This document shows positions 4,594-42,084 of a stretch of DNA of 64,000 nucleotides, one piece after another; position 1 is the first letter of the stretch; every line of letters begins with the position of its first letter. The translations under genes were made by a program, and so were the position numbers. The notes under the pieces are model-generated. The model ran no database searches, was not told the origin of the DNA, and worked only from the letters and a program-made list of their open reading frames with translations. Source of the stretch: Dysidea avara (taxonomy: Eukaryota; Porifera; Demospongiae; Dictyoceratida; Dysideidae); the NCBI RefSeq assembly GCF_963678975.1, contig NC_089272.1, positions 57,234,713 through 57,298,712 of the forward strand, read 5' to 3'.

Positions 4594-4760
4594 AGCTAGT
4601 GGCTGCACCAGCGTTGAAACCGGGTCGGGTCATCCGGCAACTTATTCTCAGTCTTATTTACACCAAATACGTGTATAAACATTTTGGCGTTATTTCGACC
4701 TATTCGGTGTAAGTATACTGCTAGTAGTCTCCGAGAATATTCGGTGAGTATCTTCCGTGG
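4594..4760. repeat. Partial GGGTC-rich hAT-like end joined to a second repeat
   Basis: From about 4609 the sequence CAGCGTTGAAACCGGGTC is the terminus of the element that is complete at 31938-32458. It is followed by a segment (4649-4760) that matches 36420-36530 in inverted orientation. Both copies of that segment adjoin GGGTC-rich element sequence, so the two parts may belong to one longer family member. Confidence 0.55.
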
Positions 4761-7519
4761 CTGGTTACGGTTACCGCTGATTCAGTCCCCCGCTGCTCTC
4801 TCCCACAATCGATGTGAGTGGGTTTCCTCGCTTCTTTCTATCACCCCCTTTGCCTGTCACTGAGTGCCGGAACGTATCTACCAAGTGACCCACGGTTGTT
4901 GAGCGGGTATACACTGCAGCTAGGTACGTGGTAGAGGTACTACTCGTCAGAGTGAAGGTGATTTTTTACTGGGTAAGTATTACTATCGGTACCATGCAAA
5001 AGTTGAGTGTTCATGACATAATGTCTCTGAAATTTGTACTTTCGGTGGACACAGCTATATAGCCTGATGCAGGCATAGAAGATATTATATAAGAGCTATA
5101 ATGAGTGGTGTCAGCATATCGAACAGCATATAATACCTAGGTAGTGCTAACCCTCCTCATATATACACTAGCACACCCATGGATCGTGCCCCAATAAACT
5201 TGGAAGTGCATTCATGCATGCTGACCCTGCACGGTTTCTACCAGAGACACATGATAATACACAAATTTTACATCAGCTTCACAGACATAGAAAAAATGTA
5301 TGCTACATAGCTATTTACACTTTTACCTTTTACTTCCTGAGAGCTTTCCACATTGATAGAATCAAATAGTATTAGCTACAGACATCGTGTACTGTTTTAC
5401 CATCCATCTAGCAGTCCTAGCCACATTGTAATGCTTATAACTCTCAATGCTTTCTTAACTGATTTCAGAAATTTCCTGTCTGTCCATTTGAAGATAAGTA
5501 TATATAGCCACGTCCATGCCATGTCATGTCCCTATGTTATGTCATATGTCCCTACATAATTATGTCATGCCATGTCATATATAGCCATTTCCCGCAAGAG
5601 GTAGTTAGCAAAATGACAGCAATAATATGATGAAAACTTTGGTCGCATACTTGGGTCGTACACCTACAAAGTAGTGATGCTAAGCAAGTTCATGTTCACC
5701 TTGATGACCACCCAGCTAGCCATCAGTTCTGAACCCTATATATAGTGGCTGAATTACAGAGATTGAACAATATCTAAGTGTCTGACAGTGCTAGAACACA
5801 ATTTGATAAATATTATAGCCAGCTAATCAACCTCAAAGTAATATAAATCTTTGTTTGCACATATACTCAGCCACATGCAGTGCAGCAAGGTTACTGCTAA
5901 GTGTATGATTAAAGAACTGGCATACACAATGGTATCCCTCTTTTTAGGTGGAGGAGTGTTATATATTGACATCGTAGATACGTAAAAAATTACCTGAACC
6001 ATGTGGCATACTCTCAGAGTGTAGGTATCAGGTGTATTGTTATATCTGTATACCTCCGTCCTCAAGTCAACCCCACCTCTAGCTCTTCCCATCCTCTAGC
6101 ACCTATGCAAATGTTCCTTCTCTGGGGACACCTTGAGCAACTGCTATATACTCTGGTAACCTTGTGAGGCAATCAACACATTGATTGGTGCCCAAAAACT
6201 CTATCATATTATGTGCACTTGTCATTGTCATACTCCACCAGACAGTGGGTTGGACATTTGTCACTTACACAATTCCCAGAAAAAGGGCTGAAATTTGTTC
6301 CTAGAAGATAGGGAGTTTGTTACAATGCAAATCCTCACCTCTGCTTTACCTGAGACAGTAAGGGTGCAAGATTAATAGGGGAATAAAATGTGAAGGATAA
6401 TTGGGGCAGTTATGGAAGTACTATATTTTTAGGGGATCCATGGACCTGGGGACCCACAGACCCATGGAGACCCAACTTTTCATGGAATTTTACATACTTT
6501 GCAATGTTTCACTAGACACCACTGTTATAGTCACAGTGGTTAATCTCACATGGCCAACCCACTTCTGTCCGTTGCTATTGTTCACACTTCAAAGTGCTTC
6601 TGAAAATCACCTCTGTGAACTATGTATTAGTCTGGAATAGTAGCATATACTTGTGCTGCACAAAGAGCACTCTTAGCTATGATATCACCAATTAACTCGC
6701 CAGTTAATATTCAGTGCGCATGATAATGGCTTCAGTAAGGCAACTACTGCAAAGTACACCAGTAGCTTGATAAACAGACTTCATGCCATCATGGTAGCAC
6801 ATGAAGGCAACTACCTGTTAGAAACAAGCCCTTGCTAAAGCCACTGAAGGAGTGGTCTATGAGGCACTTAAAATTTCTAGGAATTGTGCAAGGAACCCGT
6901 CATGATGACAAAACAGAGAAAGAGTGGTCTAGGCAATTTGAGACTAGCCACTGTGACTTTGCAAAGTATAATATGTAGTACAAGGATAGAATGTATGTAA
7001 CATTGTGAAGTATGTAAATGTAGGGTCCCTGGGTTCTTGGATCCCTGGTCCCTGGGTGCCTGTTTATACCTACCAGAAAATGCTGTAAATTTATGTTTAA
7101 TAGCGTGGATTTTTAGTAGCGATGAAATATTTGTGGTCATGGAGTACTGCATGGGAATTATAATGTTAAGTGCATGAATTGTCATATGTTGTGAAATGTG
7201 ATCATGCTTATAATAGAAGAATCACAAACAATTTATACGATGTGTGCATCCATATTTAATATACTTATAATTTCTATAATTATAGCACCTTAATTTTATT
7301 CTACTATATTGTTAACTAGTGCATAAATGAATGCTAAAATTGGAGATTCAGATGTCTAAATAAAAACACTGAATGTCAACAAACACTGGTGAATTAAAAG
7401 CACTTAAGATATGTATTGCTAATACTGAATTCTGTCACTATACGTAATTGTTATTGCCCATTAAATTTCATTATCTCTTTACATTGTTCACAGCACATTT
7501 TACCAGTATACACCGTACA
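4761..7519. other. Long gene-free stretch
   Basis: I find no exon with supportable coding content on either strand and no RNA gene. Open frames near 5353, 5823, 6401 and 6877 are short, start with low-complexity AT-rich codons and match no family I know. Confidence 0.35.
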
Positions 7520-7557
7520 GTACAGAATTTTGGAGAGAAAGTTTTTGTCAAATTTAG

Positions 7558-7643
7558 AGGAGTTCGAATCGCCAAAAAATTCTTGTCCAATTTGTAACCA
7601 ACTATTCAGAAAGAAAGCAGTAGGACACAATTGCAAGCATTAG
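7558..7643 (+). CDS. Possible terminal or upstream exon with a Cys/His finger-like motif
   Basis: The frame after a plausible acceptor (gtcaaatttag, ending 7557) gives a short tail with the pattern CPICNQLF...GHNCKH and a stop at 7641-7643. The C-x2-C ... H-x2-C-x-H spacing resembles a small zinc finger. It lies about 100 bp upstream of the KDZ gene start. It could be the last exon of another gene, an alternative 5' exon, or chance. Nothing upstream supports a longer model. Confidence 0.25.
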
Positions 7644-7739
7644 CAATGCTACAATGGCTATAGTTTATTTACTAGCTGTACCGCTTCTGTTCAAATTATG
7701 TTTATCAATTATTATAAAATTAATATAGTGAGTGAGAAA

Positions 7740-20641
<12,902 letters not shown>

Positions 20642-22613
20642 TTTTCACATAATATCTAACATGTATATCCTTATGCATGTATACAAGTATTCTAACATTT
20701 GTAAAGGGCACACTTAACCATGCACTCTTCCTGCAATATTCCCAGTGGTGGTTTCACTTAACCTGTACCTTCCAGTTTGGCTGCTCATGGAATTCGAGCC
20801 AGACATTTTGCACCATCTGTCAGAATAAATATAGCCAGAAACATTTTCAACACCAGGCCTCTATTGGTGGAATTTTCTTCCTGCATACCTGCAAGTATAT
20901 TTCAGGATGTCGCAGCCTTTCAGTAAATTGATTTTCGTTAGTATTGCTTCTTTGTTTTATGGAGGTGTTATATTTTGCTTTTCTGTATAGTGTACGTAGT
21001 TGTATAATATTATTATGCTTATATAGTTACAGTTGTGTAATAGATCTGTGCGTGCGTACTCCAATACAGAATTATAGCGTCCATTGACCAAGTGCATATT
21101 TCTAGTTTATAGCATGCAAACTGGAATAGAAAACTCTAGCAGTATACACTTGTGTTTGCTGCTTCTCCAGTGTCAATAATTGATAGCTTCAAATTCAGTA
21201 GATTGGAGCAACAATTATAGCTAATTGCTGAATAAGGCCAATGTATTTGGATGTCACTGTGCATCAAATCTAGAAATTAATGTTCAACTATATACAATAT
21301 AGCTACACTGGAAATTAAACCAACAAGTCTAAGCTAACCAGCACAGAGTAATGGTCAAAATTTCATGGCATATGTACTTGTGTAATAGCACAGGTGACAT
21401 TATAAGACCACTTTGTATAATATAAAAAATAACAACGTGAAGGTGCATGTACATGGCCATATATCAAGTAGGTCCCAAACACAGCTAGCTATAATATAGG
21501 TGTACTTCATGACCTCATTATAGTGACCACGTCAAGTAGGACGTCCCAAACGTAGTTATCATGACCTCATTACCAGTGACCATGTCAAGTAGGTCCCATA
21601 TAGAGCTAAGGCGTACTTCATGACCTCATTAATAAGACATAGTGACCATGCAATGATCAAGTCTATACATCACCTAAACTTATATAACAGTGTGAGAATA
21701 AATTAAAGATGACAAGACTACAGACTAATTGCAATGTCAACATCAAGAACTGCAACTAGTAATGCACTGGCATCTAACATCACATTGAAGATAATATACA
21801 TGTACAGTGTAGGTAAGCGGCTTCCATGATCTTGTGGATCCACTGAAGGTTAGATGTTATTATATGACTTGCTGATAACAACATAATATCACAAATATAT
21901 CATCATAAGTCATGTGTGCAAGACCTATGCTCTTTTGTCATTATGATCTATTTTATACAACCTCAACGAGAGTGTACAATCACATTCGCCTTTGATTTTT
22001 AAAGCATGAAAGTAGTTACCCACAGACTACAGCTACATATTTTACTCAAACGAATGCTTGATGTGGTCGTTCAGTAAGGTTTTACTCTACCCATGCCATT
22101 ATACACCATGTATTAGAAGTCCAATGTTCCACTAGAAAATACAACCTGTTTGCATTGTGACCAACAAGGCACATAGTTTAAGCCCATTCCACCTACGCAT
22201 GTCTGATGTAGTGCATATATTTCTTGTGCATAGTCAGACCACTTTTAATATATTCTTGTGTGTGTGTGTGAGCAGGTTCCCAGATTCTGACAGTATGTGT
22301 AAGACTAATGCATTCATTATACAGGTAACTATATAAGGAGAGGTGTTGAAACTAAATCACTAGACATGCAGTTACGATAATTAGTATTATAAATGCATTT
22401 CGAAGAATCATCATCTTGCTACTGCATTGGTAGTGATCTATAAGGGTATCTATATTTATATCGATTGTTCATGCATGCAAAGTCTGAGTGATGTCCTACC
22501 TAAACAAATGTGGATATTCCATTTGAGTACTTATTCTGTAGATATGATTTGATACATGGTCACGTACATAATTATAAGTACACTTCATTACATCCTCAGA
22601 TAGTCAGTTTTCC
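20642..22613. other. Intergenic region between two convergent genes
   Basis: It lies between the KDZ stop codon and the stop codon of the minus-strand micro-exon gene. It should hold both 3' UTRs. A near-tandem block with 'catgacctcatta' and 'tcaagtagg(t)ccca' repeats about three times at 21465-21650. Nothing else can be supported. Confidence 0.5.
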
Positions 22614-22744
22614 TTAATACCTTAACGAAACACACCTGCGCTCTTTGCATGGTTTTTTATGTTGTTTATTACAGCAAAATTTGCATTTGCCACAACTGGT
22701 TGCCTGGCAGCCTCTGCACTCACCACAACGCCTCCTCTTCTTAC
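22614..22744 (-). other. Terminal exon encoding a short CXXC zinc finger
   Basis: After the acceptor 'tattattttag' the exon reads KKRRRCGECRGC, then CGKCKFC and PCKERRC, and stops at 22616-22614. The spacing C-x2-C-x2-C-x4-C-x2-C-x2-C-x8-C-x4-C, with a basic lead-in, matches zf-CXXC domains, particularly the short form of the TET/CXXC4/CXXC5 type that lacks the KFGG insertion. All eight zinc ligands are present. In that family the fold binds CpG-containing DNA. Confidence 0.78.
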
Positions 22745-25700
22745 CTAAAATAATAAATAATATTTCATACATGTATCCTAGTTGTTGTACATCAGTTACT
22801 ATGGTAACATTTTTATTATTAGTTACTTACCATTGGTAAGAGCAACTTGTGGTGTGGAAGTTACTATGGTAACAGTTGTAATACAGAAACACACTCTACG
22901 ATTACTTACCATTGGGCAGAGCCACTTGTACAGCAGTTACTATAGTAATAGTTTTTATTACAAAAAAAACACTCTATGATAACTTACTATTGGGCCGAGT
23001 CACTTGTGGTGTGGTAGTTACTATGGTAACAGTTTTATTACAGAAACACACTCTACGATTACTTACCATTGGGCAGAGCCACTTGTACAGCAGTTACTAT
23101 AGTAATAGTTTTTATTACAAAAAAACACTCTATGATAACTTACTATTGGGCCGAGTCACTTGTGGTGTGGTAGTTACTATGGTAACAGTTTTATTACAGA
23201 AACACACTCTATGATTACTTACCATTGGGCAGAGCCACTTGTACAGCAGTTACTATAGTAAGTTTTTATTACAAAAAAACATTATAATAACTTACCATTG
23301 GGCCGAGTCACTTGTGGTGTGGAAGTTACTATGGTAACAGTTTTATTACAGAAACACACTCTACGGTTGCTTACCATTGGGCAGAGCCACTTGTACAGCA
23401 GTTACTATAGTAATAGTTTTTAATATAGAAAAGCACTCTATGATAACTTACCGTTGGGCCGAGTCACTTGTGGTGTAGTACACAGGATAAAATATTATTT
23501 TGATCAGCACAGATTTTGCTTACCAGTTGTAGATAACTGAGTAGGTGTTGTACCTAAATCAGAAGAGCATTTGAATGGTCCAGAGCAATGCATTATACAT
23601 AATTACAGTGAAGTGATATAGCAACATTAAAAGACATATGGGAAGTGAACTGTTTATTAGAGCTGAGCGATAGTTGCGATCTATCGATTATCGTGATAGT
23701 GAGCAACAATTGTGATAATGATAGTATGCAAATTGCATACTATCGCGATATATCAAAACATCTCTCACAAACATGAATAACAGCAGCAAACATGATAGTG
23801 TTGAAGTTGAGGAAACTGTTGAGCATGCACAACAACGATTACAACTGTAATACATAATAATTTACCAATATAGCATTAGAAAACCAGATACGAGATACGT
23901 GGTATGTAATTGAATTATTTGTGTGTCATTTATGTGAAGTTGAGTGTCTTTGATAACTAGTAGTACTATCGTGATACTATCATTATCGTGATATAAAAGT
24001 TACTATCAAATCGTGATAGTGATAGTTGCACTATCGCTCAGCTCTACTGTTTATACTGTTACATTAATAGCAAAAGCATTAGTGTATTTACTGTTGTAGG
24101 ATTTTTGAGTGAGAACAAATTTAATGAAACATTTAGTGGATTAATTCACTATTTAGTGGATTAATTCACTAACATAAATTTCACTAAATGGATGAAATAA
24201 CATCCGTGCTTTGTAACATCCAAGCATACATGCTCAAGTCTGTCGATATACAGGCTGTGCCTATACCAGTACTTAAATCATAATCATTTGTATATGCAGC
24301 GTTACAACACACTCTCCATTATTACTTACCACTGATTCGGGGAGCTGCCAGAGTAGTTACTAGGGTGAGATGTATATCATCATTACTGAGCATCTACCAT
24401 TACACACTTACCACTGGTATGGGGAGCTGTTGGAGTAGTTACTAGGGTGAGATACATATCATTACTACTGAGCATTTACCATTACACACTTACCACTGGT
24501 ACGGGGAGCTGTTGGAGTTGCTACTAGGGTGAGATACATATCATTATTACTGAGCATTTACCATTACACACTTACCACTGGTACGGGGAGCTGTTGGAGT
24601 AGCTACTAGGGTGAGATACATATCATTATTACTGAGCATTTACCATTACACACTTACCACTGGTACGGGGAGCTGTTGGAGTAGCTACTAGGGTGAGATA
24701 CATATCATTATTACTGAGCATTTAACATTACACACTTACCACTGGTACGGGGAGCTGTTGGAGTAGTTACTAGGGTGAGATACATATCATTATTACTGAG
24801 CATTTAACATTACACACTTACCACTGGTACGGGGAGCTGTTGGAGTAGTTACTAGGGTGAGATACATATCATTATTACTGAGCATTTAACATTACACACT
24901 TACCACTGGTACGGGGAGCTGTTGGAGTGGCTACTAGGGTGAGATACATATCATTATTACTAAGCATTTAACATTACACACTTACCACTGGTACGGGGAG
25001 CTGCCGGAGTAGTTATTAGGGTGAGATGTATATCATCATTACTGAGCATCTACCATTACACACTTACCACTGGTACGGGGAGCTGTTGGAGTAGTTACTA
25101 GGGTGAGATACATATCATTATTACTGAGCATTTACCATTACACACTTACCACTGGTATGGGGAGCTGTTGGAGTAGCTACTAGGGTGAGATACATATCAT
25201 TATTACTGAGCATTTAACATTAAACACTTACCACTGGTACGGGGAGCTGCCGGAGTAGTTACTAGGGTGAGATGTATATCATCATTACTGAGCATCTACC
25301 ATTACACACTTACCACTGGTACGGGGAGCTGTTGGAGTAGTTACTAGGGTGAGATACATATCATTATTACTGAGCATTTACCATTACACACTTACCACTG
25401 GTACGGGGAGCTGTTGGAGTAGCTACTAGGGTGAGATACATATCATTATTACTGAGCATTTACCATTACACACTTACCACTGGTACGGGGAGCTGTTGGA
25501 GTAGCTACTAGGGTGAGATACATATCATTATTACTGAGCATTTAACATTACACACTTACCACTGGTACGGGGAGCTGTTGGAGTAGCTACTAGGGTGAGA
25601 TACATATCATTATTACTGAGCATTTAACATTACACACTTACCACTGGTACGGGGAGCTGTTGGAGTAGCTACTAGGGTGAGATACATATCATTATTACTG

Positions 25701-28700
25701 AGCATCTACCATTACACACTTACCACTGGTACGGGGAGCTGTTGGAGTAGTTACTAGGGTGAGATACATATCATTATTACTGAACATCTACCATTACACA
25801 CTTACCACTGGTACGGGGAGCTATTGGAGTAGCTACTAGGGTGAGATACATATCATTATTACTGAGCATTTAACATTACACACTTACCACTGGTACGGGG
25901 AGCTGCCGGAGTAGTTACTAGGGTGAGATGTATATCATCATTACTGAGCATCTACCATTACACACTTACCACTGGTACGGGGAGCTGTTGGAGTAGTTAC
26001 TAGGGTGAGATACATATCATTATTACTGAGCATTTACCATTACACACTTACCACTGGTACGGGGAGCTGTTGGAGTAGCTACTAGGGTGAGATACATATC
26101 ATTATTACTGAGCATTAAACATTACACACTTACCACTGGTACGGGGAGCTGTTGGAGTAGCTACTAGGGTGAGATACATATCATTATTACTGAGCATTTA
26201 ACATTACACACTTACCACTGGTACGGGGAGCTGTTGGAGTAGCTACTAGGGTGAGATACATATCATTATTACTGAGCATCTACCATTACACACTTACCAC
26301 TGGTACGGGGAGCTGTTGGAGTAGCTACTAGGGTGAGATACATATCATTATTACTGAACATCTACCATTACACACTTACCACTGGTACGGGGAGCTATTG
26401 GAGTAGCTACTAGGGTGAGATGTATATCATTATTACTGAGTATTTATCATTACACACTTACCACTGGTACGGAGAGCTGTTGGAGTAGTTACTAGGGTGA
26501 GATACATATCATTATCACTGAGCATCTACCATTACACACTTACCACTGGTACGGGGAGCTATTGGAGTAGTTACTAGGGTGAGATGTATATCATTATTAC
26601 TGAGCATTTACCATTACACACTTACCACTAGTATGGGGAGCTGCCGGATTAGTTACTAGGGTGAAATATAGAGTATATCATTATTACTGAGCTTTTTAAA
26701 TTATTACCACTGGTATGAGAAATTGCAGGCATACATAGTACCAAATAGAAGGATTTCACCAAGAGGAGAAAGTTTTGTGTATCACCAAGATTCAAAAATT
26801 TTGAGGAAGAAATTTTAAATCTTTATGTGTTAAGAAGAATGCCAGCTGCACATTTCAGGGAGTAGGGATGAGAGAGATTTTTCATGGGTAGTAGCTTATC
26901 CACAAAAAATTGAGACCATTGGAAAAAACCTGCTATATGGTATTAAGAGTATATTCTTGATGGTGTGTGTAAATTATTGTGTGACATTGCTGACTACAGT
27001 CTACAGTATATAGACAGCAATTACAACCCACAAGTATAGTACACATGTACATATGTTGGTATTTCACTGTTGCTGTTAGCTCAAAAACCTGAGAAACCAG
27101 TGAAAAATTATTTATCCATTTTGAAAGCATATATGCCAGTAATGTTATACACAATAATTAAGTGTATCACCAGTGTACTACTATAAATTTTAAACCCATA
27201 CAGTAATGGTATTTACTTACTACGGTTAGTGATACAGCTAGTAATTAAATGTATAGCTATTAGCTTCTTGGTCCTTTATAGTCTACCAATTGCAATTTAC
27301 CTTATTATCATCACTTATCAATTGATGAATTCTACTGAGTAATGTACAAGAAAGACGAATAAAGCCACTAAGTACAGTACAAGGTAAATACTTTATGTTT
27401 ACAAAACAGAGTGGGGTATAATTTTACACTGTAACTATTAAATTAGAAACAAGACCAATTCTCTTCAAAAATACTGTACTGTAACACTATTGAAGGACGT
27501 TTTCTTTTACTTGGAGGACTAATATTAGAGTTTCAAATTTTGGAAGATTTGCTTTAATATTACATTTGTGACCAGCTGTGCAAAAATCAACTGTTTTCGC
27601 AAAATTCTATTTTGCTATAAAAACCGAGAAAAAAACATATTGAAATAAACTAGGTAAAATTCGTGTGGTACATAAAAATTTTTGTATGTTTCAATTGCAT
27701 TGGTATATACACTACCAATAAAACCTATACACCACCAGGTTTGCCTGTTCATAAGAAAATCCTTATTTTGTGTCATTAATGTTTCAGCAGTTCACCAATG
27801 TTACAACATCTCTGCTTTCACCTCCCTGATAGCCTTGCAATATTACATTACATTTTTGTGTTTGTATGTACAGCTCATGGTACTTGGGCTATGGCGCTTA
27901 TTTATGATGCGGTAGAAATAAAGTTTTCTGCTGTCATTTAATTGTGGAAAGGCCTTCTTCTTTGTCCACATGGAGATATACAGGGGAAACACTACACCTT
28001 GATCGATGTGCCAGTTCATGGTGAACAGACTGAGCCAAAGCCTGTCTCCATGCTTGTTTCAGTTGTGAGTTATGATGATTGATTAAACAAGTGCCTGCAA
28101 TTTATTTGCTGTATCGTTGCTGCACATTCCTGTTCCAATTGTCTAGTGCTATAACTCAGATGCTATACAAAAGACTGAAACTTTGGCTGTCCACTCCTTT
28201 GATACTATACGTAGATAACAAAGAAGCAATAAAATGAATGCATGAAAACGGCCGGTTATGCTCAGAAATGTGAGAAACCAAGCTTCCACGTACACAAACT
28301 CACATTCACTATATAAACAACAAATGAATTGCTGCACTCAATTTCCACCTTCTTTGTGCAGCAAAGAGGAGGTATGATTTCTGTGCACAGAGATGGACAT
28401 CATACTTCATCAATTCAGAGTGATTTTAGCACAAGCACAAGCCATGGGTTCTTCTCACTCCCACAATTAGCCCACTTATACAAGTACACAAAAAAATTGA
28501 CATTTCAACTAGAGTAGGGACCATAGCACATCGATAAAAAGTACTGAAACAAGTTGGAATAGTGCATGATATTAAATCACAGTAAAACAATAAGTGGAAT
28601 ATCCCTACTGTGCATTTCCATTATGGTATCTTGAGCACAGTAGAATTTTTATTGTTTTACAGTGATTTAATATCGTGTACTACTCCAGCTTGTTTCAGTA

Positions 28701-31700
28701 CTTTTTGTTGATGTGTTATGGTCAGTTGAAAATTCCAATTTTTTTGTGTACTTGTTTGTTAACTTTTTATTTCAATGGTGAACCCATGTATCCTGCCTTA
28801 ATGGTGCCGCGCACCCCAGCTGTTAATTATTGCCTGAAAAGTGAGATATTCATTATGCTTTGCTGTTCACTATGTTCAACCCATTACACAGCATTATGAA
28901 TCAAGAACTATTCAAAAAGCATCTCCAATCAAAGTAGCCACTATGAAAAATACTGATGATTTGTTCCATTATGAAGGGGTGCTACTACCAAATCAACACC
29001 TTTCGCTGTCAGCAAAGATGATGGGACACAAAGGAGGTCACTGGTAAGTCCATGAAGAATGCATTGTACATACTGCAGTATGCCAAAAGGCACGTGTCCA
29101 GCTGAAGCAACGTGGAAAAATCAAGCCCATAGCCTTAGCCATTATTGAGTTATGCTTGTCTGAAGTCATCAGTCAGTCAGTCAGTCAGTAGAAAATTCCG
29201 TTTTGTAATTTAAAAAAAAGTTCATAGCAACTTGCTGAAAGCATTCCGGGTCAGATCTGAAAGCTTGTTTTTATCTAAACAATACTGCTTCAATGTCGTC
29301 AGGTAAAAGTGAGGCAGTTTTTGGGTGATGCTTTTTCATGGGCCACACCCACACCTTTGTGGTCCTTACTATACAGTACAATTGCACTGTATGATATACT
29401 TTCTGCAACAACTTTAAACAGGCTATAGGACCAGGTGTCCTACAGACCTTCAGCACTTATGCTGTAAAGCCTTAATGAATAAATAAATAAAATATTATCC
29501 CACCAACAGAAAAAGAAAAAAAATCTGCCAAACTGGACACATTTTAAGCATCACATTTGGCCCATACAGTAACAGCTTAGATTTTTTTTGTGAAATATTT
29601 GTCTATATAGCCCTATGTACATAGGCATTGTAAAGTTATATACTGTACCTTGATTCATATAATGATGTTTTGAGTGTGGAAGCTGGATTTTGTCAAATAA
29701 AAAATAATTCCAAGCTACCAATCAGTTTATACAGTGATTAAAATTTTTAGATAACAGATTTTTGAAAATACACACCATTTTGTTCTTGGATTCTGCAAAG
29801 CAAACTCTAGAAAGTTTGAAATGTAAAATACACAACAAGCATACCATCCATGTCCTCTGGCAAGTCACCACCTTGATCTCCTAAAGATTTACAACAAAAC
29901 CAAAATTACACACACATGCACACAACCTCTCTAACAAAAAGTATTCGTACACAATCAATGACTCGATTCTACACACTCTTGTCTTTATGTCCATATTATT
30001 ATACCTTACTTGCTGAAACCCATTAGAAAGCAATCAAAATAACTACATGCATACATAAAAATGATATACGTACCATCCTGAGTTCTGACATCATCATCTT
30101 CATGTTGATACTCAGCTATAACCATTCCCAGGACAACAACATAGTGAATGATATACACACGTTAGTGCTGAGCAATATCCGTGGTCTGTTTTTGATACTG
30201 TTTAATGTCTTAACACTGCAATACCGTAGATTTAAAATAATAGTTTTTACTACTGTATTTTTAACCACAGTAAAATGTCTGGCTCAGTATTTAGAAGCGA
30301 GTTCAGAAGGCAGGTACATTTTTGAGCAGAGATTTCTGTACAGTCTTCTGTAAACCCTTCACTGACTCGGCAAAGCTGAGAGGCACATTAAGGCATATCT
30401 ACCCCGGGCTGACCATTTTCTAAAACAGTTAGACACCAAACACTAGCATCTTTGTGGCATAAACGGTTTGTAGCAGGTGATAGAATGACACAACAGAAAC
30501 CTTGGCTATTCTATGTTGCTTTATTCTAATACCTCCTACTCAGCATTTATGTCTTAAAGACCCTGGTATGTGGTGTCTAGCTATAACTAAGCTGCTGTGA
30601 TACAATTACATCTTGAGTACAAATGCTTTAAAGTTTGTACTTTTGTATCTGGATCTAGTAGTAGAGGTCTAAAATGGCATCTAAGGAATACCAATAATAT
30701 AGTTATACCGCAGTATCAAGTATCAATATCATACCATCTATGAGATATTAAAACTGTTCAGCACTAACACACATATACATCATAAAATAAATAGCCAGCT
30801 ACATACATCCTATATGTACACACATACTGAATACTTGGTTGTGAGAAGGAACTTTGAAGTACAGCTATAGTTTCCCACTAGGGAACTGTGAACAGCTGCT
30901 GAAAGTCTATGAAGATAAGAAGCAAAATCCTTATCAAACCCTACAACTTGCTAAAAACCAGGCGCCTGTGCAGTTTAAAATTATTTAAACATTATAGGTT
31001 TTTTCATTACTTTTGTTGAAATGCATTATTCAAGAAAGTCTTACAGATTAAAATTTCTAATTTGACTTTATTGAATGATGTGCTTGACTGCTATTATTAT
31101 TATAGTTAGACACATTAATATTTCTTTAAGCTGTGGGGTATCTGTATGCACAATATTATCTATCAAACAGTACGGTAGTATTGTTTAGTATAGCTTTTCC
31201 TAAAATGAATGGTGCGGGCCAAACTTCTGCTGTTAAAAAAATATCACATGTGAAGAAAAACGAAGAGTCTTGGTGCATCTACCATCAAATCCAGCATTAA
31301 AACTGAACCAGTGAGCTATAAAATAGACAAAAATCCACCTTTGGTTTGCCTGTCTTAACCAGAGTCACAAAGCTAGAGGCCAAACAAAGTAGTGAGTATA
31401 GCCTTCATTTCATGCCACAGTAACAACTCATCCATGGCGTTGCCTTTTCTGGTTGCAATAAGGGTTTGCCTTATGAGTTGCTAGATGCCTTGTTAATAAT
31501 AATAAGCTCACTGTGTAATAAGGTCACCAGTATAAAAGCCAGTCAACTTGATAACCCCTAAATGTGTGATTTATGTACAAAGTGATGTAGCCACCTGTCA
31601 ATAAGGTTGAAAATTTTGGCCCAAAAGTGACTGGAACAGATCAGAGTGTTTCTTTATATTAAATACCATAATTATTTACTTGGTTAAACACCGGACTTTA

Positions 31701-34580
31701 ATAGTCGCCAGACTTGAATAGTGGCTGCATTGTGCCTTAAAAATAGAGCATATACACACAGTCCTTGATTATTCTAAGGAGTTTTCTGCTTATTATTGGG
31801 TCAGGAAACTGAAGTATACTATAACGCAGTATTGTTCTCAGTAAAGAAAGAACAATAGTTATTCTAGTCTACATAATGTGTCTAGGGATTATTTTATTTA
31901 TTTATTTGGTTTAACCACAAGGTAAGGGGGTACAGGACAGCGTTGAAACCGGGTCGGGTCATCTGGGTCACATTTTCTCCGGGTCATCCGGGTCTGACCC
32001 GGTTTACAATTTATCCGGGTCTGACCCGGATTGGATCATGTGAGAAACGAAATTGTTCGTTTGACGACGTGGAAACTTATAAACGCTATCGCGTAGCTCT
32101 TTCGTGAGCCACGCCCACTTATCGCATTACCAACATACGCTCAGCCACGCCCATTTGTTAGTATGTAGCACGAAACTGAGGGTATCTATGGTGAGGGGTA
32201 GCTATTGTCAGTAGGTGAAGACCTTTTTTTTTTGGTCTTCAACCTACAGCTAGCTGAAGTTGCAATATTTACTCAACACGAATCGAACGCTCAAAATGTA
32301 GACTCGTTCGCTCGCTTGAGACTAGCCGAAATACGTCTCGGCTTTAATTAATCCGGGTCAATCCGGGTCACATCCGGGTCAAATCTGGGTCTGACCCAGA
32401 TTGCTATCCGGGTCAGTGGGTCATCCGGGTCAGCAGTAGTGACCCGGTTTCAACGTTGGTACAGGAGCCTGGAGGCAACAAGGGGTACCTACAAAAACAA
32501 CAATTAATACAAAAACAAGAACACATAATAGCTCAACATTACAAAAACAAATTGAGTACATAAGTTAGAAATCTATTCTACATACAAGAAAAAGGTTACG
32601 TAAAACAAAGAAACTTATACAAAAGCTGTTTAAAAGTGGCACAGTGGGAGATGGAGTGAATGGAGTTACACATAATCGATACAATTTACAAGGAATACCT
32701 ATGGATTGTTTACACAAGAGAGATAGAGAGTGTGATGTTGTTGGAGCAGTGGAGAAGGTAAAGTGATCACTAAAGTACACATTTACTGTTTCCTTTTAAT
32801 GCACATTGCGTTGACATGTGCTAGAGTTACTAAATGTAAAGTTAGTATACATACTCATCCTATAAAAACAGTGCTATACTGAATAGTCGTCGCACTCTAA
32901 GAGCTGCTTAAGAAATAACCACTACCCTTAAATAATGGCTGCCCTTAAGTACTTTAAACTCGGCTATAGTAGCCAAGGCGTTAACCAAGTAAATACGGTA
33001 CATATGCTCATCCAAGAGTACCAGTCTGGAAGTGAAGATTAGTGTCTGACGTAATTCAGAAAAAAAAAAAATTAGTACTAAAATAGGCATATAGTGTAAA
33101 CAGCACTTTTAATGTTATAGCCTAAGGAAACATATTGTATACTTTTTGATAAAAACTGATAAAGGAAAGCACCCTGGCCTTCCGAAGACATTTCAATTCA
33201 AATTTTATTTACTATTCAGTAGACAGACAGGGCTCCAAATCCAAACTCCCTTCCAGAAAATCCTGGCTACATCCCTGAAGTATGGACAAACCCAAAATGT
33301 ACGTGAAACACTTTACACACACTCTCACACACACAGTCACTCCGTCACACACACGCGCGCGCACGCATGCACGCACGCATGCACACACACAACACACAAA
33401 ACACACACACACACACACACACACAAAACACACACACACACACACACACAAAACACACACACACACATACAACACACACAAACCTATGCCATCATCTTCA
33501 ATAATTTCTTCCTCCTCATCATCAGTTGTGTCTGCTATGCGCATAAGCATTGTGATAACTCGGGACTTTATGTACCTGTTTGATTTTCGGAATTATGAAG
33601 TCCTGCAAGAATGGACATTCATTATAGCCATATGTACAATGCAAGTGCAATGTAAAATTAAGGTTACTGTGTAACATAACACACTGTGCTACATACCAAT
33701 ACCCTATGCACAAAAGTACACTGTAGAATATTAAAAGTGCAATGTAGAATAACATACGCAAATAAGCTTTGACGAAACGCCTCCAGTAATTTCTGATAGT
33801 TTTGAACTTCTTTGCAAATGCCTTGCCAGCTCCCTTAGAAGTCAGGTGATACCATGTATCCCTTTTATCATTTTTTTTGTGCATGAGGATAAAAAAATCA
33901 GCCCCACAGGATTTGTTCATCATCAATGCCTACATAATATACATATGTGAACTCATACCAACATGTATGTATGCAAACACAGCTAGCTGCCACCCAATAT
34001 AATCAGCATTAATATTATGGTACTGGAGAACCATGGACTACTATCAGTTGTTGACATGTACCATTTATTTGTCCATAGTTGAGTTTTAACCACACTCAAA
34101 ATCTAGTGGAATGTGAGCTTACACTATTTCTTGAGAGGTGGATAGGATACTGGGAGCCTTTGAACAAAGAGAATAAGTATGCCCATTCCCATATGAATTT
34201 CAATGTACTGTAAGTTACATAAAAACAACACAATGAAGGATTAGCTAACATGCAGTGTGTTATAAAGGTATGCAACCAAATCAACTACGTACTTATACAG
34301 TAGCTTTTTGCAAAACATAGCATTTTTGAAAACAGGTTTAGTCCTGGATGTATTTGTTTACAGAGGTGTGCACATTGTAATCTGAATATCAACATATACA
34401 TACATGTATGAGAACACAAATGTGCATGTACCTTTTGACGCAAACAAGCCCACGCTTTATACGCGTGCTTTATTTGCTTTATCTTTGGAGCACGTTTTGG
34501 GAATTCTGTCTTACAGAAGTCACAAAAGTGACATCTTGGATAACACCGAGTACCACAGTGTGCACATGTCTTCATCAAAG
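22614..34580 (-). CDS. Cys-cluster / micro-exon-array / CXXC zinc-finger gene
   Basis: Exons in coding order: 34580-34432 (ATG at 34575), 33929-33758, 33534-33484, 30115-30074, 29880-29845, then 29 micro-exons (first 26655-26626, last 24359-24330, period 82), 23553-23524, 23404-23375, 23328-23296, 23252-23223, 23176-23144, 23096-23067, 23020-22988, 22939-22910, 22863-22831 and 22744-22614. Junctions are GT-AG and phases agree (0 after exon 1, then 1-1 throughout). The predicted product is about 575 residues. It starts with a cysteine cluster (CAHCG, CYPRCHFCDFC), then a basic segment (KKNDKRDTWYHLTSKG), acidic spacers (DDEEEEIIEDD, HEDDDV), about 380 residues of Thr/Pro-rich repeats, and a CXXC finger. 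Function is unknown. A CXXC finger suggests DNA binding in the nucleus, while the repeats would be a flexible, O-glycosylation- or phosphorylation-prone linker. I do not recognise the architecture. Further exons in the 26.7-29.8 kb intron, or a 5' exon, are possible. Confidence 0.7.
22831..23404 (-). repeat. Second micro-exon array: alternating 33- and 30-nt exons
   Basis: Eight exons on a period of about 155 bp, made of two related half-units. The 30-nt exons (23404-23375, 23252-23223, 23096-23067, 22939-22910) read VTAVQVALPN. The 33-nt exons (23328-23296, 23176-23144, 23020-22988, 22863-22831) read VTTTPQVTRPN or close variants. Each has an acceptor of the form ta(c/t)(c/t)atag or tactatag and a gtaag donor, all phase 1-1. 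A further half-unit at about 23452 has lost its acceptor. The introns contain GTTACTATGGTAAC-like palindromes. Confidence 0.75.
23524..23553 (-). other. Linker micro-exon (30 nt)
   Basis: Flanked by 'ctgatttag' and 'gtaagc', phase 1-1, encoding GTTPTQLSTT. It is unlike the two arrays in sequence but has the same length and phase, suggesting a common ancestral exon. Confidence 0.6.
23658..24046. mobile_element. hAT-type MITE, perfect 8-bp target duplication
   Basis: The ends TAGAGCTGAGCGATAG and CTATCGCTCAGCTCTA are perfect inverted repeats. Identical octamers CTGTTTAT lie at 23650-23657 and 24047-24054. The 389-bp body contains many ATCGTGATA-type inverted iterations and no coding sequence. 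It sits in an intron between the two micro-exon arrays. Confidence 0.88.
24325..26700 (-). repeat. Array of 29 micro-exons, exact 82-bp period
   Basis: The unit starts (plus strand) at CTTACCACTGG and recurs at 24325 + 82k for k = 0 to 28 with no length change. On the minus strand each unit is acceptor 'ctcaccctag', a 30-nt exon, then donor 'gtaagtgtgta' with a 52-nt intron. Exon k occupies 24330+82k to 24359+82k. Reading is phase 1-1 and gives VTTPTAPRTS. Observed variants are VATPTAPRTS, VTTPAAPRTS, VTTPTAPHTS, PIAP forms, VTNPAAPHTS and VTTLAAPRIS, all without a stop or a lost splice site. A degenerate 30th unit lies at about 26700-26720. Higher-order similarity between blocks (the CCGG-containing units at 24980, 25226 and 25882) points to unequal exchange. 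Confidence 0.9.
26721..29844. other. Intron of the micro-exon gene
   Basis: This 3.1-kb stretch between the acidic exon at 29845-29880 and the array holds a palindromic MITE (28480-28754). I found no further exon with certainty. Open frames at 27682, 28329, 28675 and 28841 on the plus strand show no family resemblance. Confidence 0.4.
28480..28754. mobile_element. Foldback MITE
   Basis: The left arm (from 'acaagtacac' through 'aaaaagtactgaaacaag' and 'gatattaaatcac') is repeated inverted in the right arm ('gtgatttaatatc', 'cttgtttcagtactttt', 'gtgtacttgt'). The loop is small. There is no coding potential. Confidence 0.65.
29845..30115 (-). other. Two small acidic exons of the micro-exon gene
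   Basis: Exon 30115-30074 (42 nt) encodes EYQHEDDDVRTQD and exon 29880-29845 (36 nt) encodes DQGGDLPEDMD. Both have 'atag' or 'ttag' acceptors and 'gtacgt' or 'gtatgc' donors and are phase 1-1, so they join each other, the upstream acidic exon and the micro-exons in frame. Confidence 0.65.
30116..31929. other. Intron of the micro-exon gene, no insert recognised
   Basis: I see no exon or element in this stretch. Open frames are short and non-descript. Confidence 0.35.
31938..32458. mobile_element. Complete GGGTC-rich hAT-type element
   Basis: The ends CAGCGTTGAAACCGGGTC and GACCCGGTTTCAACGTTG are inverted repeats (one mismatch in the outer part). Perfect octamers GTACAGGA flank it at 31930-31937 and 32459-32466. 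Within 120 bp of each end, GGGTC or its complement GACCC recurs many times, often as CCGGGTC, as expected of iterated transposase-binding sites. The body is 521 bp and non-coding. Relatives occur at 8300-8878, 36527-39093 (interrupted) and 4609. Confidence 0.9.
32459..33300. other. Intron sequence with probable old retroelement remnant
   Basis: The hAT element is inserted in sequence that begins with a (TTTA)n run near 31896 and continues past 32480 with A-rich, gene-free sequence. A (TTTA)n edge is compatible with a retroelement tail on the minus strand, but I cannot identify a family. Nothing else is supportable. Confidence 0.3.
33310..33480. repeat. (CA)n-rich compound microsatellite beside an exon donor
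   Basis: CA repeats with interspersed AAAACA and GCACGC units. On the coding (minus) strand it is a TG-rich tract that begins right at the donor of the 51-nt acidic exon (33534-33484, donor gtttgt). Confidence 0.95.
33484..33534 (-). other. Acidic exon of the micro-exon gene
   Basis: 51 nt, phase 1-1, encoding DTTDDEEEEIIEDDGI. The acceptor is 'gcgcatag' and the donor 'gtttgtgtgtg'. It joins the preceding 172-nt exon (33929-33758) in frame. Confidence 0.6.
33758..33929 (-). other. Second coding exon of the micro-exon gene
   Basis: The 172-nt exon (acceptor 'tatgtag', donor 'gtatgt') encodes about 57 residues, including SCGADFFILMHKKND and TWYHLTSKGAGKAFAKKF. It is lysine-rich and compact and looks like a folded basic domain. 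I do not recognise it. Confidence 0.65.
34432..34580 (-). other. First coding exon: N-terminal cysteine cluster
   Basis: From the ATG at 34575 the exon encodes MKTCAHCG, then CYPRCHFCDFCKTEFPKR and a basic tail that ends at a 'gtacat' donor. Seven cysteines within 20 residues (C-x2-C-x3-C-x3-C-x2-C-x2-C and the preceding one) suggest a zinc-binding knuckle. An acceptor-like 'ttttggtag' just upstream leaves open either a 5' UTR intron or an earlier coding exon. Confidence 0.6.
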
Positions 34581-34585
34581 CTACC

Positions 34586-36419
34586 AAAACAAAGCGAGAT
34601 GATGTGTATAATATAAACCAACAGTTGTATAATATAAACCAACAGTGTACAAAAATTGTCACAATAAATTCTTATCAATGTAGATGTCATATCATAGTAC
34701 CGTATAATAGGGATCATGGAGGCTTACTTTCACAATATAAATTAGACCAGAAATCAACCTTACAATATGGTACAGATTGGATCTATCGTTTCACTGGTAG
34801 TCGAGTGTATCTGTGCACAGGTTGAAGGAAACACGCGTGTACATTGCCTACACGTTTAAAGTAACTCGCGTGTATATTGCAGTATGTACCAACGAGTTTG
34901 AAGAAAGTCTTGTTCATTCTACTCACTAGTTAGCTATGTGGGAAATTCTAGCCACCTCAAAAACTATGCTTGAGTTGTTTACCCATGAAAACTTAAATGT
35001 TTGTTCTTATTAACATTCATCTTATACCAAACCTTTCGAAAACCAAAACAATACAGTATAGTACGTATGTACTGCAATTATTAAAATCCAGCATAGCGTT
35101 AACAGTTTAATGATCAATGTTCATTCACAAGTATAAAAGCTACAATATAATTATATTCAGCCACTGCATCAGTGCTCAATACAATGTCTCTACAGACCAG
35201 CATGCAAATGGTCAGCCATCGGTACACAATAGTATGCAGCTTACATATACATAATGCTTTTTAAAGTTTATCTTTATAAGTCACAATGTCAGACCATTTG
35301 TAATTCAGTTGGTCACTGTTGATTTGGGTTGGAAAGACAGGCTGTTATTTTGAGCTCTGTACATTTTTTTGATATTTTACTACTTAGTATTGATCAGTCA
35401 GAAACTGGTGAGACTTTACTGGTTGATCACTTTCTCAAAAAAATTGCATACTACTGGCACCTAGTCACTCCTTCCCTGGGAGAATTTGACATTTTGTTTG
35501 TGTGCATGCACACAAATTCTATTGATCTTTAACCATATAATATCAAGAATAAATAATAAAAGAGAATGTCTAACTCCAATACTGGTCATTAAAAATGACA
35601 GCCACAAGTCCACAGGCTTCCCTTGGATTTACAGGAAGGGTGTTAAAAAGCACCATTCTTGACCTTTTAGCAGGACAATTAATGCAGTCCTGGTTAAGAC
35701 AGCTAAGGCCACTCCAAATAAATTTTTTGTTTCCTGTCCTGGACTCAGGCATATTTGCATTCGGGCAGGCGGTCCATTTCCATTATTTCATTATACGATT
35801 GGCAGCTTTTCAAGCCATTATTTGCCTGGCACAACCATAAAAAGCTGCATAAAAGCATGCTTAACCTTGTTCCTTCCCTTTCAAGTTAAGTTGCAAAAAT
35901 AGCACTAACGTGAAGTTTGTGCCGACTTGATAGCACTGCTGACCCTGGCTTTTACTGAGCCTGTCAGTATGTAAGGAAAATAATGGAAGAATACGGAATA
36001 GAATATTTAGAGCTGACAGTAACTAGATGCGGGCGGTGGACGGGAAACAGATTATTTACTTGGAGTGGCCTAATCCCCAGACACTAGCACTGAGCAGGAC
36101 TCTAGATGGCAGCTATTAAGTGACCAACCAACCAATAGTTGGTTACCCAGGCGCTCTTTTTAGGCAGATGAGGGCCGATCACTGGGACTACTAATCCAAT
36201 ACACACTGATACATTGTTACTAGGCTCAATAACACACATAACAGCAAAATTTTGCTCTCTTTGTAGAGAAAAACGTCAAAAGTTTCGATATAATAATAAT
36301 ATACAGACGTACCAGGCATCTAGAAAAAGGATCACAATCAACCGCCAATTCAGTATCGTCTTTTCGATTGTGGAACTAGGTCTGCGCTCTGCCTGTGGAA
36401 ACAAACTCGATCCAAAGAT
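34586..36419. other. Gene-free stretch with old repeats
   Basis: It contains the second copy of the 9.4-9.7 kb repeat (35165-35370). It also contains an inverted-repeat element at about 35701-36071 whose arms read 'ggccactccaaataaa' and 'tatttacttggagtggcc'. No exon can be supported. Confidence 0.4.
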
Positions 36420-36530
36420 ACCTACCGAATACTCTCGTACACTACTCGAGATAATACTTACACCAAATAGGTAGAAATAACGCGGAAATCTCTATATACG
36501 TATTTCGTTTAAATAAGAATGATATTAGGT
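36420..36530. repeat. Inverted copy of the 4649-4760 repeat
   Basis: Read on the minus strand it follows 4649-4760 through 'cgttatttc' and 'ggtgtaagtat' and the 'gtattcggt' block. It directly adjoins the truncated GGGTC-rich element. Confidence 0.5.
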
Positions 36531-36754
36531 TGCATCCGGGTCACATTTTCTCCGGGTCCTACCCGGTTTACAAATTATAGGGGTCTGACCCGGATTGGAT
36601 CACGTGAGAAACGAAATTGTTCGTTTGACGACGTGGAAACTTATAAACGCTATCGCGTAGCTCTTTCGTGAGCCACGCCCACTTATCGCGTTACCAACAT
36701 ACGTTCAGCTAGGCCCATTTATTAGTAAGTGCTGTAGCACAAAACTGAGGGTAT

Positions 36755-38850
36755 ATTATTATTTTATTATTATTAATTAGCAAAGCCCACCAGGGGCAAC
36801 ACGCTAATGTGCATTACAAATCACAAATTGTTTAGCTTATCTATAATGTTCTTAAAAGTGTCAAGGTTAATTGTGTCAATGTTGTCAATTTTCAAGTTAT
36901 TCCAATCAATAATTGTTCTTGGCAGAAAAGAATACTTATATAAATCAATTCTGGATTGCAGCTGTGCAAATTTGAGGGGATTATTGGCACGAGTATATGA
37001 TACAGGGGTTGGCTGGGGTAAACAATGGTTTGGTAGCACCAGTAAGTTTCTTACAATCTTGAATAATAATATAAGTCTAGCATTCCTTCTCCTACTTTTT
37101 AAACTTGGCCATTGAAGGTAATTAAGCATATCTGTAATACTGTGTTGTTGACTGGATCTGTGCCATGGTTTATTAAGAACAAATCTTGCAGCTCGGTGTT
37201 GGATCATTTCTAATTTGCTAACTGTTATTATTATTATTAATTAGCAAAGCCCACCAGGGGCAACACGCTAATGTGCATTACAAATCACAAATTGCTTAGC
37301 TTATTTATAGTGTTCTTAAAAGTGTCAAGGTTAATTGTGTCAATGTTGTCAATTTTCAAGTTATTCCAATCAATAATTGTTCTTGGCAGAAAAGAATACT
37401 TATATAAATCAATTCTGGATTGCAGTTGTGCAAATTTGAGGGGATTATTGGCACGAGTATATGATACAGGGGTTGGCTGGGGTAAACAATGATTTGGTAG
37501 CACCAGTAAGTTTCTTACAATCTTGAATAATAATATAAGTCTAGCATTCCTTCTCCTACTTTTTAAACTTGGCCATTGAAGGTAATTAAGCATATCTGTA
37601 ATACTGTGTTGTTGACTGGATCTGTGCCATGGTTTATTAAGAACAAATCTTGCAGCTCGGTGTTGGATCATTTCTAATTTGCTAACTGTTGTTTGGTGAT
37701 AAGGATCCCAGATGGCTGAGCAGTATTCAATAGAAGGTAACAATAATTGTTTGTATAAGTGTTCTTTGATTTGTATTGGGGCATTATATAAATTCCTTTT
37801 CAGAAATCCAAGAAGACGGTTTGCCTTTCCACAAATATAGTTAACATGAGGTTCCCATAATAGTGTATGATGGAGGCGGATACCAAGATAGGTCTGCTCT
37901 GATACAATATTCAATGGAATATTAGACATTTTATATGTAAAAGTGCTTTTACTGTGGTGGGTTGTAAATTGTAAAATATTGCATTTGGGAATGTTAAATT
38001 CCATCAGCCAGTTGCTAGCCCATTGTGTTAAGGAATCTAAGTCATTTTGCAGTATTCTGTGATCGTTGGGTGTAGCTATAGTTTTAAAGAGTAGAATGTT
38101 GTCAGCAAATAATCTAATTTCACTCTTGATGTTTGATACAATATCGTTAATGTAAATTAGGAACAACACAGGACCAAGTACGGAACCTTGTGGAACACCA
38201 GATGTAACTTGACATGTAGAAGATCTAGAGCCTTCTACTACAACCTGTTGGGTACGACCATGAAGGAAGGACTCTAGCCACTGTAAGACAGTTCCTCTTA
38301 TACCATAGTAATTTAATTTGTAGAGAAGTCTAGAATGAGCTACTCTGTCGAACGCTTTAGAAAAGTCTAATATAGCAGCATCAACTTGCAGGTTCCTGTC
38401 AATATCTTTTGCAATGTCATTAACAGTAATGAGTAGTTGAGTCTCACAGGAATGTTTTGATCTAAATCCAAACTGGTTGTCTGAAAGAATATTGTGGTCC
38501 TCCAAATGCTTCATAATTTGACTCACGATGATATGCTCCGTTGTTTTACAAACTACTGAGGTGAGTGAGATAGAACGGTAGTTGCCTGGGTGAGCTTTGG
38601 AACCTTTTTTAAATATTGGGGTGACATAGGCATGCTTCCATTGTAATGGGACTTCACCAGATTCTAGTGATTGTTTGAAAATATGAGTTAGAATGGGAGA
38701 TAATTCGGCAGCTGTGGCCTTCAGTACATACGGATGCAAGGAGTCAGGTCCTGGGGATTTGGATGTGTCACAGGTACTTAACAAGTTGTAGACTCCTTGT
38801 TCGGTAATCTCAAATGTAGGTAAAGATGGAAATAAGGATGGACCTTTGTC
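36755..38850 (-). mobile_element. 5'-truncated CR1/L2-like LINE with duplicated 3' end
   Basis: It is flanked by a 7-bp target duplication AGGGTAT (36748-36754 and 38851-38857) within the hAT element. The 3' end (low coordinate) is an (ATT)n tail. The last 470 bp occur twice in tandem: 36755-37226 and 37227-37692, each ending in the same tail. This suggests a second 5'-truncated copy inserted or templated at the tail of the first. The unrelated-looking start at 38850 is a typical 5' truncation. Confidence 0.88.
37285..38850 (-). pseudogene. LINE reverse transcriptase, inactive (FADN)
   Basis: The open frame of about 520 codons runs from the truncation point to a stop at 37285. Non-LTR RT motifs are in order: SKSPGPDSLHPYVLK, PIFKKG with NYRSISLTS, QFGFRSKHSCETQLL, AAILDFSKAFDRV, SGVPQGSVLGPVLFLIYIND, then FADNILLF. 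The second catalytic aspartate of the FADD box is asparagine, which should abolish polymerisation. The C-terminal part (YLGIRL, IEYCSAIWDP, the AARFVLN segment) is typical of the CR1/L2/Jockey group. No endonuclease domain remains. Confidence 0.88.
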
Positions 38851-39093
38851 AGGGTATCTATGGTGAGGGGTAGCTATTGTCAGTAGGTGATTACCTTTTT
38901 TTTCTTTTGGTCTTCAACCTATAGCTAAGCTGAAGTTGCAATATTTACTCAACACGAATCGAACGCTCAAAACGTAGTCTCGCTCGCTCGAGACTAGCCG
39001 AAACATAGCTCTTATCGCACGCCTCGGCTTTAATTAATCCGGATTGCTATCCGGGTCAGTGGGTCATCCGGGTCAGCAGTAGTGACCCGGGGC

Positions 39094-41177: not shown

Positions 41178-41352
41178 AGGGGTGGAGGCTGGGGGGTGGA
41201 GGCTGGGGGGTGGAGGCTGGGGGGTGGAGGCTGGGGGGTGGAGGCTGGGGGGTGGAGGCTGGGGGGTGGAGGCTGGGGGGTGGAGGCTGGGGGGTGGAGG
41301 CTGGGGGGTGGAGGCTGGGGGGTGGAGGCTGGGGGGTGGAGGCTGGGGGGTG
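41178..41352. repeat. G-rich 14-bp minisatellite
   Basis: The unit GAGGCTGGGGGGTG repeats about 12 times without interruption. Runs of six G every 14 bp give strong G-quadruplex potential on the plus strand. Confidence 0.95.
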
Positions 41353-41367
41353 GCGGGGAGGGCAAAA

Positions 41368-41808
41368 GATAGGCCTCAAAATGGAGGCAGACCACGATTG
41401 GAGTCCAGACACGAGATGACAGGGCTGTGCTGGCTCCTTAGTGGCTGATATGTAGCAAAATCTACAGAGAACACGTCTGGCCAACATTATAAGGCTGTCC
41501 ACCAGTAAACCACTGATAGGCCTCAAAATGGAGGCAGACCACGATTGGAGTCCAGACACGAGATGACAGGGCTGTGCTGGCTCCTTAGTGGCTGATATGT
41601 AGCAAAATCTACAGAGAACACGTCTGGCCAACATTATAAGGCTGTCCACCAGTAAACCACTGATAGGCCTCAAAATGGAGGCAGACCACGATTGGAGTCC
41701 AGACACGAGATGACAGGGCTGTGCTGGCTCCTTAGTGGCTGATATGTAGCAAAATCTACAGAGAACACGTCTGGCCAACATTATAAGGCTGTCCACCAGT
41801 AAACCACT
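41368..41808. repeat. Three tandem 147-bp repeats
   Basis: Units start at 41368, 41515 and 41662 with 'gataggcctcaaaatggag' and are essentially identical. 147 is divisible by 3, so the minus strand stays open across all three and the neighbouring 14-bp array. This explains a 263-codon frame that I regard as non-genic. A diverged relative lies at about 56385-56730. Confidence 0.92.
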
Positions 41809-42084
41809 GATTCTTGCCAGGCCAGGTCCTTCACAAGGCCTGAAACCGCCATTTGGGTACTCCACACCACCCAGAAAAGACGTCTATTAAAACCAGCCTC
41901 GTGTAGTTTGAGTAGTGCTGAGGGTCAAAACTTGTAGTACGATAGTGTAGCTATCCACTGGTGGTGTTAGTTTGATTTTGCCTTATGTGCGATTTGGTTC
42001 GGTTCTGTAAAATCTGGTCACATATTATAAATATACATTTAATTTAACTACTATAGTTAATTGTCATACTGGTTGTATTCATAG

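Follow-up and report, generated by a model that had tools for sequence, protein, structure and literature searches.

The question raised by this locus is whether a row of 82-bp repeats in the sponge Dysidea avara, which at first sight looks like a plain satellite, is a run of exons, and if so, to what kind of gene these exons belong. The window, that is the whole stretch of 64,000 nucleotides (nt) that was analysed (contig NC_089272.1, positions 57,234,713 to 57,298,712, assembly GCF_963678975.1), contains the repeats as an array here called A1. Judged from sequence comparison, A1 is likely to be a real tandem micro-exon run, belonging to the second gene of a KDZ DNA transposon that is giant and Kyakuja-like. 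Element ends with target duplications, a convergent gene pair, a gene plan common to related elements and, at related loci, arrays built to the same design are present in the sequence. The transposon as carrier, a second array (A2) and a CXXC zinc finger at the end of the gene are points absent from the earlier note on this DNA.

The earlier note had described a minus-strand run of 29 units on an exact 82-bp period, and the spacing was found to be exactly 82 bp in 28 of 28 intervals. Its description of the unit also agreed with the sequence: in all 29 units, the 30-nt exon is stop-free in phase 1-1 and is followed directly at its 3' side by a GTAAGT donor, with introns of 52 nt. Each unit had further been credited with a ctcaccctag acceptor and intact splice sites. 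The AG of the acceptor is indeed kept in 28 of 29 units, but the unit at 25015-24986 (CACCCTAA) has AA in its place, and the acceptor of the first unit reads ttcaccctag. Across the 28 AG-intact units there are 10 different decapeptides, namely VATPTAPRTS (12 units), VTTPTAPRTS (six units) and eight other kinds (10 units). The claim that differences fall mostly on conservative amino acid changes did not survive counting, as 10 alternative bases were seen in 30 exon columns versus 13 in 34 inner intron columns, and, of the possible changes, 4 of 28 synonymous and 6 of 59 non-synonymous ones had occurred.

The genome (550.8 Mb, 108 contigs) was searched by pattern, and a second copy of the array was located on contig C4. 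There, a sequence 99.2–99.9% identical to positions 4638-36535 of the window stands between other flanks and has its own target duplication, CATATAT. Two copies of the window family with separate target duplications (CATCCGG and CATATAT) define a discrete mobile element, whose outer ~118 bp form an imperfect inverted repeat. Haplotype duplication as an explanation for the two copies was rejected on account of their differing contigs, flanks and target duplications. The array has 29 units in the window copy and 23 in the C4 copy; one six-unit block is the main difference between the copies, with small changes besides. CCGGGTC-type repeats were observed on both flanks of the element (4618-4637 and 36536-36560), with a similar tandem inside it at 32350-32391, and the element may have inserted within another repeat.

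The first gene of the element encodes a KDZ transposase, with both the KDZ match (profile positions 48-122 of 217) and the CxC3 match scoring over their Pfam cut-offs (Table 1). With its 7-bp duplication and CA..TG ends, the element is a KDZ transposon that is Kyakuja-like by its ends, as far as sequence can tell. The second gene lies on the minus strand and is convergent with the transposase gene. Its predicted exons, with phases read by eye, total 1599 nt, a multiple of three, when the stop codon and the unit with the AA acceptor are counted in; 38 predicted short exons of 30 or 33 nt account for 1152 of these 1599 nt, as would be expected of a micro-exon gene. The introns of the window-gene arrays measure 43–52 nt.

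Table 1. Features of the transposon and its two genes (positions in the window; predicted exons are those of the second gene).
Feature	Position	Strand	Description
KDZ-type DNA transposon	4638..36535	.	31.9 kb; ends CAAC..GTTG; 7-bp target duplication CATCCGG
Left terminal inverted repeat	4638..4754	+	~118 bp, ~82% identity to other end (window left end compared with right end of the C4 copy)
Right terminal inverted repeat	36418..36535	-	Inner limit approximate
Transposase gene	9980..18173	+	Exon by exon; exons matched to elements on C10 and C9
Transposase Cys-rich exon	10177-10341	+	
CxC3 match	~11902-12144	+	Pfam 51.4 bits, cut-off 26.6
KDZ match	~12476-12805	+	Pfam 30.4 bits, cut-off 26.6
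Predicted exon 1, Cys-rich	34432..34575	-	Ends in phase 0; similar exon in families C, D, E, G
Predicted exon 2	33758..33929	-	Ends in phase 1; similar exon in families C, D, E, F, G
Array A1	24330..26655	-	29 candidate micro-exons; tandem repeat 24324-26668
Single 30-nt candidate exon	23524..23553	-	GTTPTQLSTT, phase 1-1
Array A2	22831..23404	-	8 candidate micro-exons, 30 and 33 nt alternating, ~156 bp per pair
Predicted terminal exon	22614..22744	-	Holds the stop codon and a CXXC zinc finger; phase 1 at its start

The terminal exon carries eight Cys, predicted to bind zinc, in CXXC spacing and is similar in sequence to the CXXC family. In a profile search against PDB, chains of KDM2B, TET3, TET1 and HRX were matched with a best E of 4.6e-6, and seven of seven members matched Pfam zf-CXXC at E values up to 0.1; the copy in the window scored 26.1 bits, 0.4 bits under the cut-off of 26.5. 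Cys spacing and profile similarity are common to this finger and those of KDM2B, TET1, TET3 and HRX, whereas the window finger is shorter, the loop reading KFGG in KDM2B being missing. Families B and G each lack one usual Cys in the alignment of members. The starting phase of the CXXC exon is 1 in all eight families read (A to G, and K). No Pfam match was obtained for the region of exons 1 and 2, and a ribosomal protein match to the same region in the PDB profile search (E 0.033) was not accepted as homology.

To place the second gene among its relatives, CXXC-type places in the genome were collected with two protein queries, giving at least 41. For 20 of these, one of 33 KDZ matches stands no more than 40 kb away, and 19, on many contigs, are convergent with the KDZ match, where ~0.5% would be expected for mere nearness. 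A micro-exon array was found upstream of the CXXC exon in 15 of the 20 related loci examined, and one locus has an uninterrupted coding repeat instead. Thirteen of these arrays belong to the convergent places (14 examined of 19). The fourteenth convergent place (L020) has a contiguous 27-bp coding repeat of 10.5 copies in the frame of the CXXC exon, which may represent either an ancestral state or the outcome of intron loss; it was observed at 1182-1472 of that locus, on contig C9 at ~36.22 Mb, with a KDZ-paired CXXC exon. Among the other places (at least 22), arrays were found in two of six examined, C5:30910679 (family F) and C4:48718988 (family K), the latter, in L028, being an 82-bp micro-exon array of 10 units with the peptide VSGDVIPPRN. 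No array was seen in the stretch read for L056, nor in L017, L021 and L022 within the ~1.5 kb covered upstream; L021 and L022 are weak matches, and the K array, for comparison, sits 1.1–1.9 kb upstream. Further clusters of CXXC-type exons with no convergent KDZ match were observed on contig C12 (6.5–8.2 Mb) and contig C4 (47.7–48.7 Mb).

Nine array families were distinguished, with exons of 27–60 nt and modal introns of 46–54 nt (B having no clear mode). Modal exons measure 30 nt in A1 (29 and 23 units), 30 and 33 nt in A2 (8 and 8 units), 30 nt in B (7 units), 33 nt in C (16 and 9 units), 30 nt in D (25 and 8 units), 42 nt in E (16 units), 33 nt in F (28, 18 and 15 units), 60 nt in G (12 and 5 units), 27 nt in H (14 units) and 30 nt in K (10 units), the unit counts being lower bounds for loci read just 1.5 kb upstream. 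For the two copies of family G, the unit finder gave 12 and 5 units, versus 14 and 7 donor motifs. The copy of G on C9 has a target duplication, CTGTAGC, and the one on C10, a related 21-kb element in the L045/L044 region at ~7.932–7.953 Mb, has no matching duplication. When units were compared in 45 pairs, similarity was clear only for A2-A2b (one array) and B-D, and A1-E, A2-F and A2b-B were borderline (2–4 of 200 shuffles). The K unit, in eight comparisons, was close to E (0 of 200 shuffles) and A2 (2 of 200). Most array families thus look unrelated by sequence, a remote common origin being possible. The ten repeat peptides consist to 88% of T, S, A, V, G, N, Q or P, with 5% charged or aromatic residues.

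The exon reading was assessed on these families. A phase-1 exon was present on the gene strand in eight of eight units tested and on the opposite strand in none of the eight; H agrees (0 of 9 opposite overall). Shuffled units, with A2 and B entered as single real units and the others as consensus units, held a candidate exon in 2.2–12.4% of 1000 shuffles per unit. Of the 21 deviations in exon length, 20 were divisible by three, compared to 5 of 23 for introns (Fisher p 5e-7, with cases that are partly dependent, as near-identical copies were included). In these counts family K was left out, one 15-nt chance unit was dropped per A2 list, and introns outside 30–75 nt were not counted. Splice-site columns were quieter than inner intron columns (4 of 48 versus 52 of 186 variable, p 0.004), as was the pyrimidine stretch (7 of 60, p 0.009). 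The earlier proposal of symmetric phase 1-1 micro-exons coding for a Thr/Pro-rich linker is, on the strength of same-design arrays at the same position of the gene, well supported.

We infer the splicing of the array, its isoforms and the function of the second gene from these comparisons. Splicing is predicted to join the 30-nt exons into up to 28 or 29 decapeptides, followed by the A2 repeats. Together these would make up a disordered linker rich in Thr, Pro and Ala, with a Cys-rich domain on its N-terminal side and, at the C terminus, a CXXC finger that would bind DNA, probably at CpG. The product is probably a nuclear protein with these three parts. As every unit combines a symmetric exon and a minimal intron, gain or loss of units, presumably by unequal exchange or gap repair, would be frame-safe, so that the length of the linker could change in DNA while the reading frame is kept. 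CXXC fingers are linked to the binding of unmethylated CpG. Considering this biology and the TET/JBP partners of fungal KDZ elements, the finger may help the element to find or protect CpG-rich or unmethylated DNA.

A different use of real exons had been put forward in the earlier note, in which splicing could yield a linker of anything between 0 and 290 residues. The array would then serve mainly as a device for isoform diversity, with the number of units retained differing from one transcript to the next. All units are symmetric in phase 1-1, so that any subset would stay in frame, but constitutive splicing of an expanding array needs this symmetry too. The units and their splice sites are near-identical, giving no sign of choice, and copy number already differs in DNA (29 versus 23). 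An isoform device is rather unlikely, though it is the strongest of the competing explanations. The most likely reading of the sequence is that the exons are joined by splicing into a disordered linker, and that the length of this linker evolves at the DNA level.

Several observations weigh against exons of either kind. A candidate exon also occurs in 118 of 1000 dinucleotide shuffles of the A1 consensus unit (11.8%), so A1 alone is weak evidence for exons, and the evidential strength comes from the related arrays. The candidate-exon rule was written after the arrays had been seen, and family G passes it only when a GTACA donor is allowed and fails otherwise. Exon columns did not vary significantly less than intron columns (50 of 228 versus 52 of 186, p 0.17); a looser intron count of 87 of 186, which had included indel units, was replaced by this strict count, and the difference thereby lost its significance. 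Variability did not differ between codon positions, and six arrays together showed 19 of the 180 possible synonymous changes, 31 of the 471 non-synonymous ones and 1 of the 15 to a stop. Among 227 units of families A to G, there were 10 with a broken AG or GT, three stops and one frameshift (H is uninformative on splice-site loss, its units having been picked by a rule demanding GT). Exon 1 was not found in families B and F, nor exon 2 in B, and in family F the end of exon 2 seems to be in phase 0, which sets it apart from the rest. The pattern of variation agrees with a linker whose sequence is weakly constrained and of which some copies are decaying.

The same observations could be taken for a plain intronic satellite, in which chance splice-like motifs in one unit were copied along and the whole array is removed within one long intron. 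The homogeneity of the tandem array, the 118 shuffles and the alike variation of exon and intron columns in A1 would all agree with this. It does not account for dissimilar arrays of other families sharing design, strand, phase and place, for exon indels that preserve the frame, for introns that vary more than splice-site columns, or for the plain coding repeat at the array position in L020, and we regard a satellite as improbable. A function at the DNA level, for example as a binding platform for transposase or chromatin proteins with the exon look being secondary, would suit the repeat periods near 80 bp of most families, but is very unlikely given that the family sequences are mostly unrelated, that the arrays lie inside the gene and away from the element ends, and that exon indels come in multiples of three. 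Least probable by a little is a host gene merely neighbouring KDZ elements, which 22 of the at least 41 CXXC-type places without KDZ convergence (many clustered on C12 and C4) and the arrays at two of six such places (C5:30910679 and C4:48718988) would favour, but which is opposed by the 19 convergent pairs over many contigs and by the position of the window gene inside the element ends, where it moved together with the transposase gene, and which the duplicated element with separate target duplications contradicts for the window copy.

Some further features lie outside the transposon. An open frame of 542 codons on the minus strand (37285-38913) resembles, by eye, the reverse transcriptase of a non-LTR (long terminal repeat) retrotransposon, and is overlapped by a 464-bp tandem duplication (98%) at 36764-37690. 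Two minisatellites with 100% matches were seen at 41179-41353 (14-bp unit, 12.5 copies) and 41368-41811 (147-bp unit, 3 copies). Elsewhere in the genome, 27 Wnt matches were obtained, in keeping with an animal, and many Wnt matches stand close together on contig C13 (5.32–5.50 Mb), like a tandem gene cluster.

Tandemly repeated exons were reportedly described by Davis in 1988. The exons of Dscam are larger than the micro-exons in the window. Dscam has tandem arrays of duplicated exons as well, which are mutually exclusive, whereas the window exons are ~30 nt, symmetric and give no sign of choice (PMC1397879). The micro-exon genes (MEGs) of schistosomes share the many very short exons; they are described as having 10 to 20 short exons, long introns (from 100 up to almost 5000 bp) and products that are secreted, in contrast to the 29 near-identical exons and 52-nt introns of this transposon gene (PMC10526429). 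With introns of 43–52 nt in its arrays, the window gene does not have the long introns (100–5000 bp) of the schistosome MEG family. For the transposon, PMC12730594 gives 7-bp duplications, CA..TG ends and no inverted repeats for two Kyakuja families of Laccaria, 8-bp duplications for Zisupton, and TET/JBP partner genes for fungal KDZ elements. The window element has in common with these the KDZ transposase with a CxC3 cluster, the 7-bp duplication, the CA..TG ends and a second gene connected with the biology of DNA methylation (TET/JBP in those elements, CXXC in this one), and differs in its animal host, its length of 31.9 kb, its ~118-bp inverted repeats and its CXXC partner with a micro-exon array (PMC12730594). 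The word CXXC is absent from PMC12730594. Among the papers listed, at the level of titles and the opening lines of abstracts, no CXXC gene in KDZ elements was found in the literature on KDZ/Zisupton elements, and no micro-exon array in a transposon in the literature on these elements or on micro-exon arrays.

For the group as a whole, it may be proposed tentatively, at somewhat less than even chances, that CXXC genes of KDZ elements in this genome have repeatedly, several independent times, converted a linker coded by plain repeats into an array of exons and introns, relying on the spliceosome of the host so that the distance from the Cys-rich domain to the CXXC finger can evolve without loss of frame. 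If the arrays are spliced as predicted, there would be a group of giant animal transposons with genes that code mainly via self-homogenising rows of micro-exons, which, given their satellite-like look, are easily masked or left unannotated. The nine families, with exons of 27–60 nt and near-constant introns, would provide a natural series for studying the origin of tandem exon arrays, and would also bear on how the spliceosome copes with tiny exons and introns that are nearly identical and come by the dozen. They further raise the question of why KDZ elements retain partner genes with a link to DNA methylation, which are TET/JBP in fungi and CXXC in this genome.

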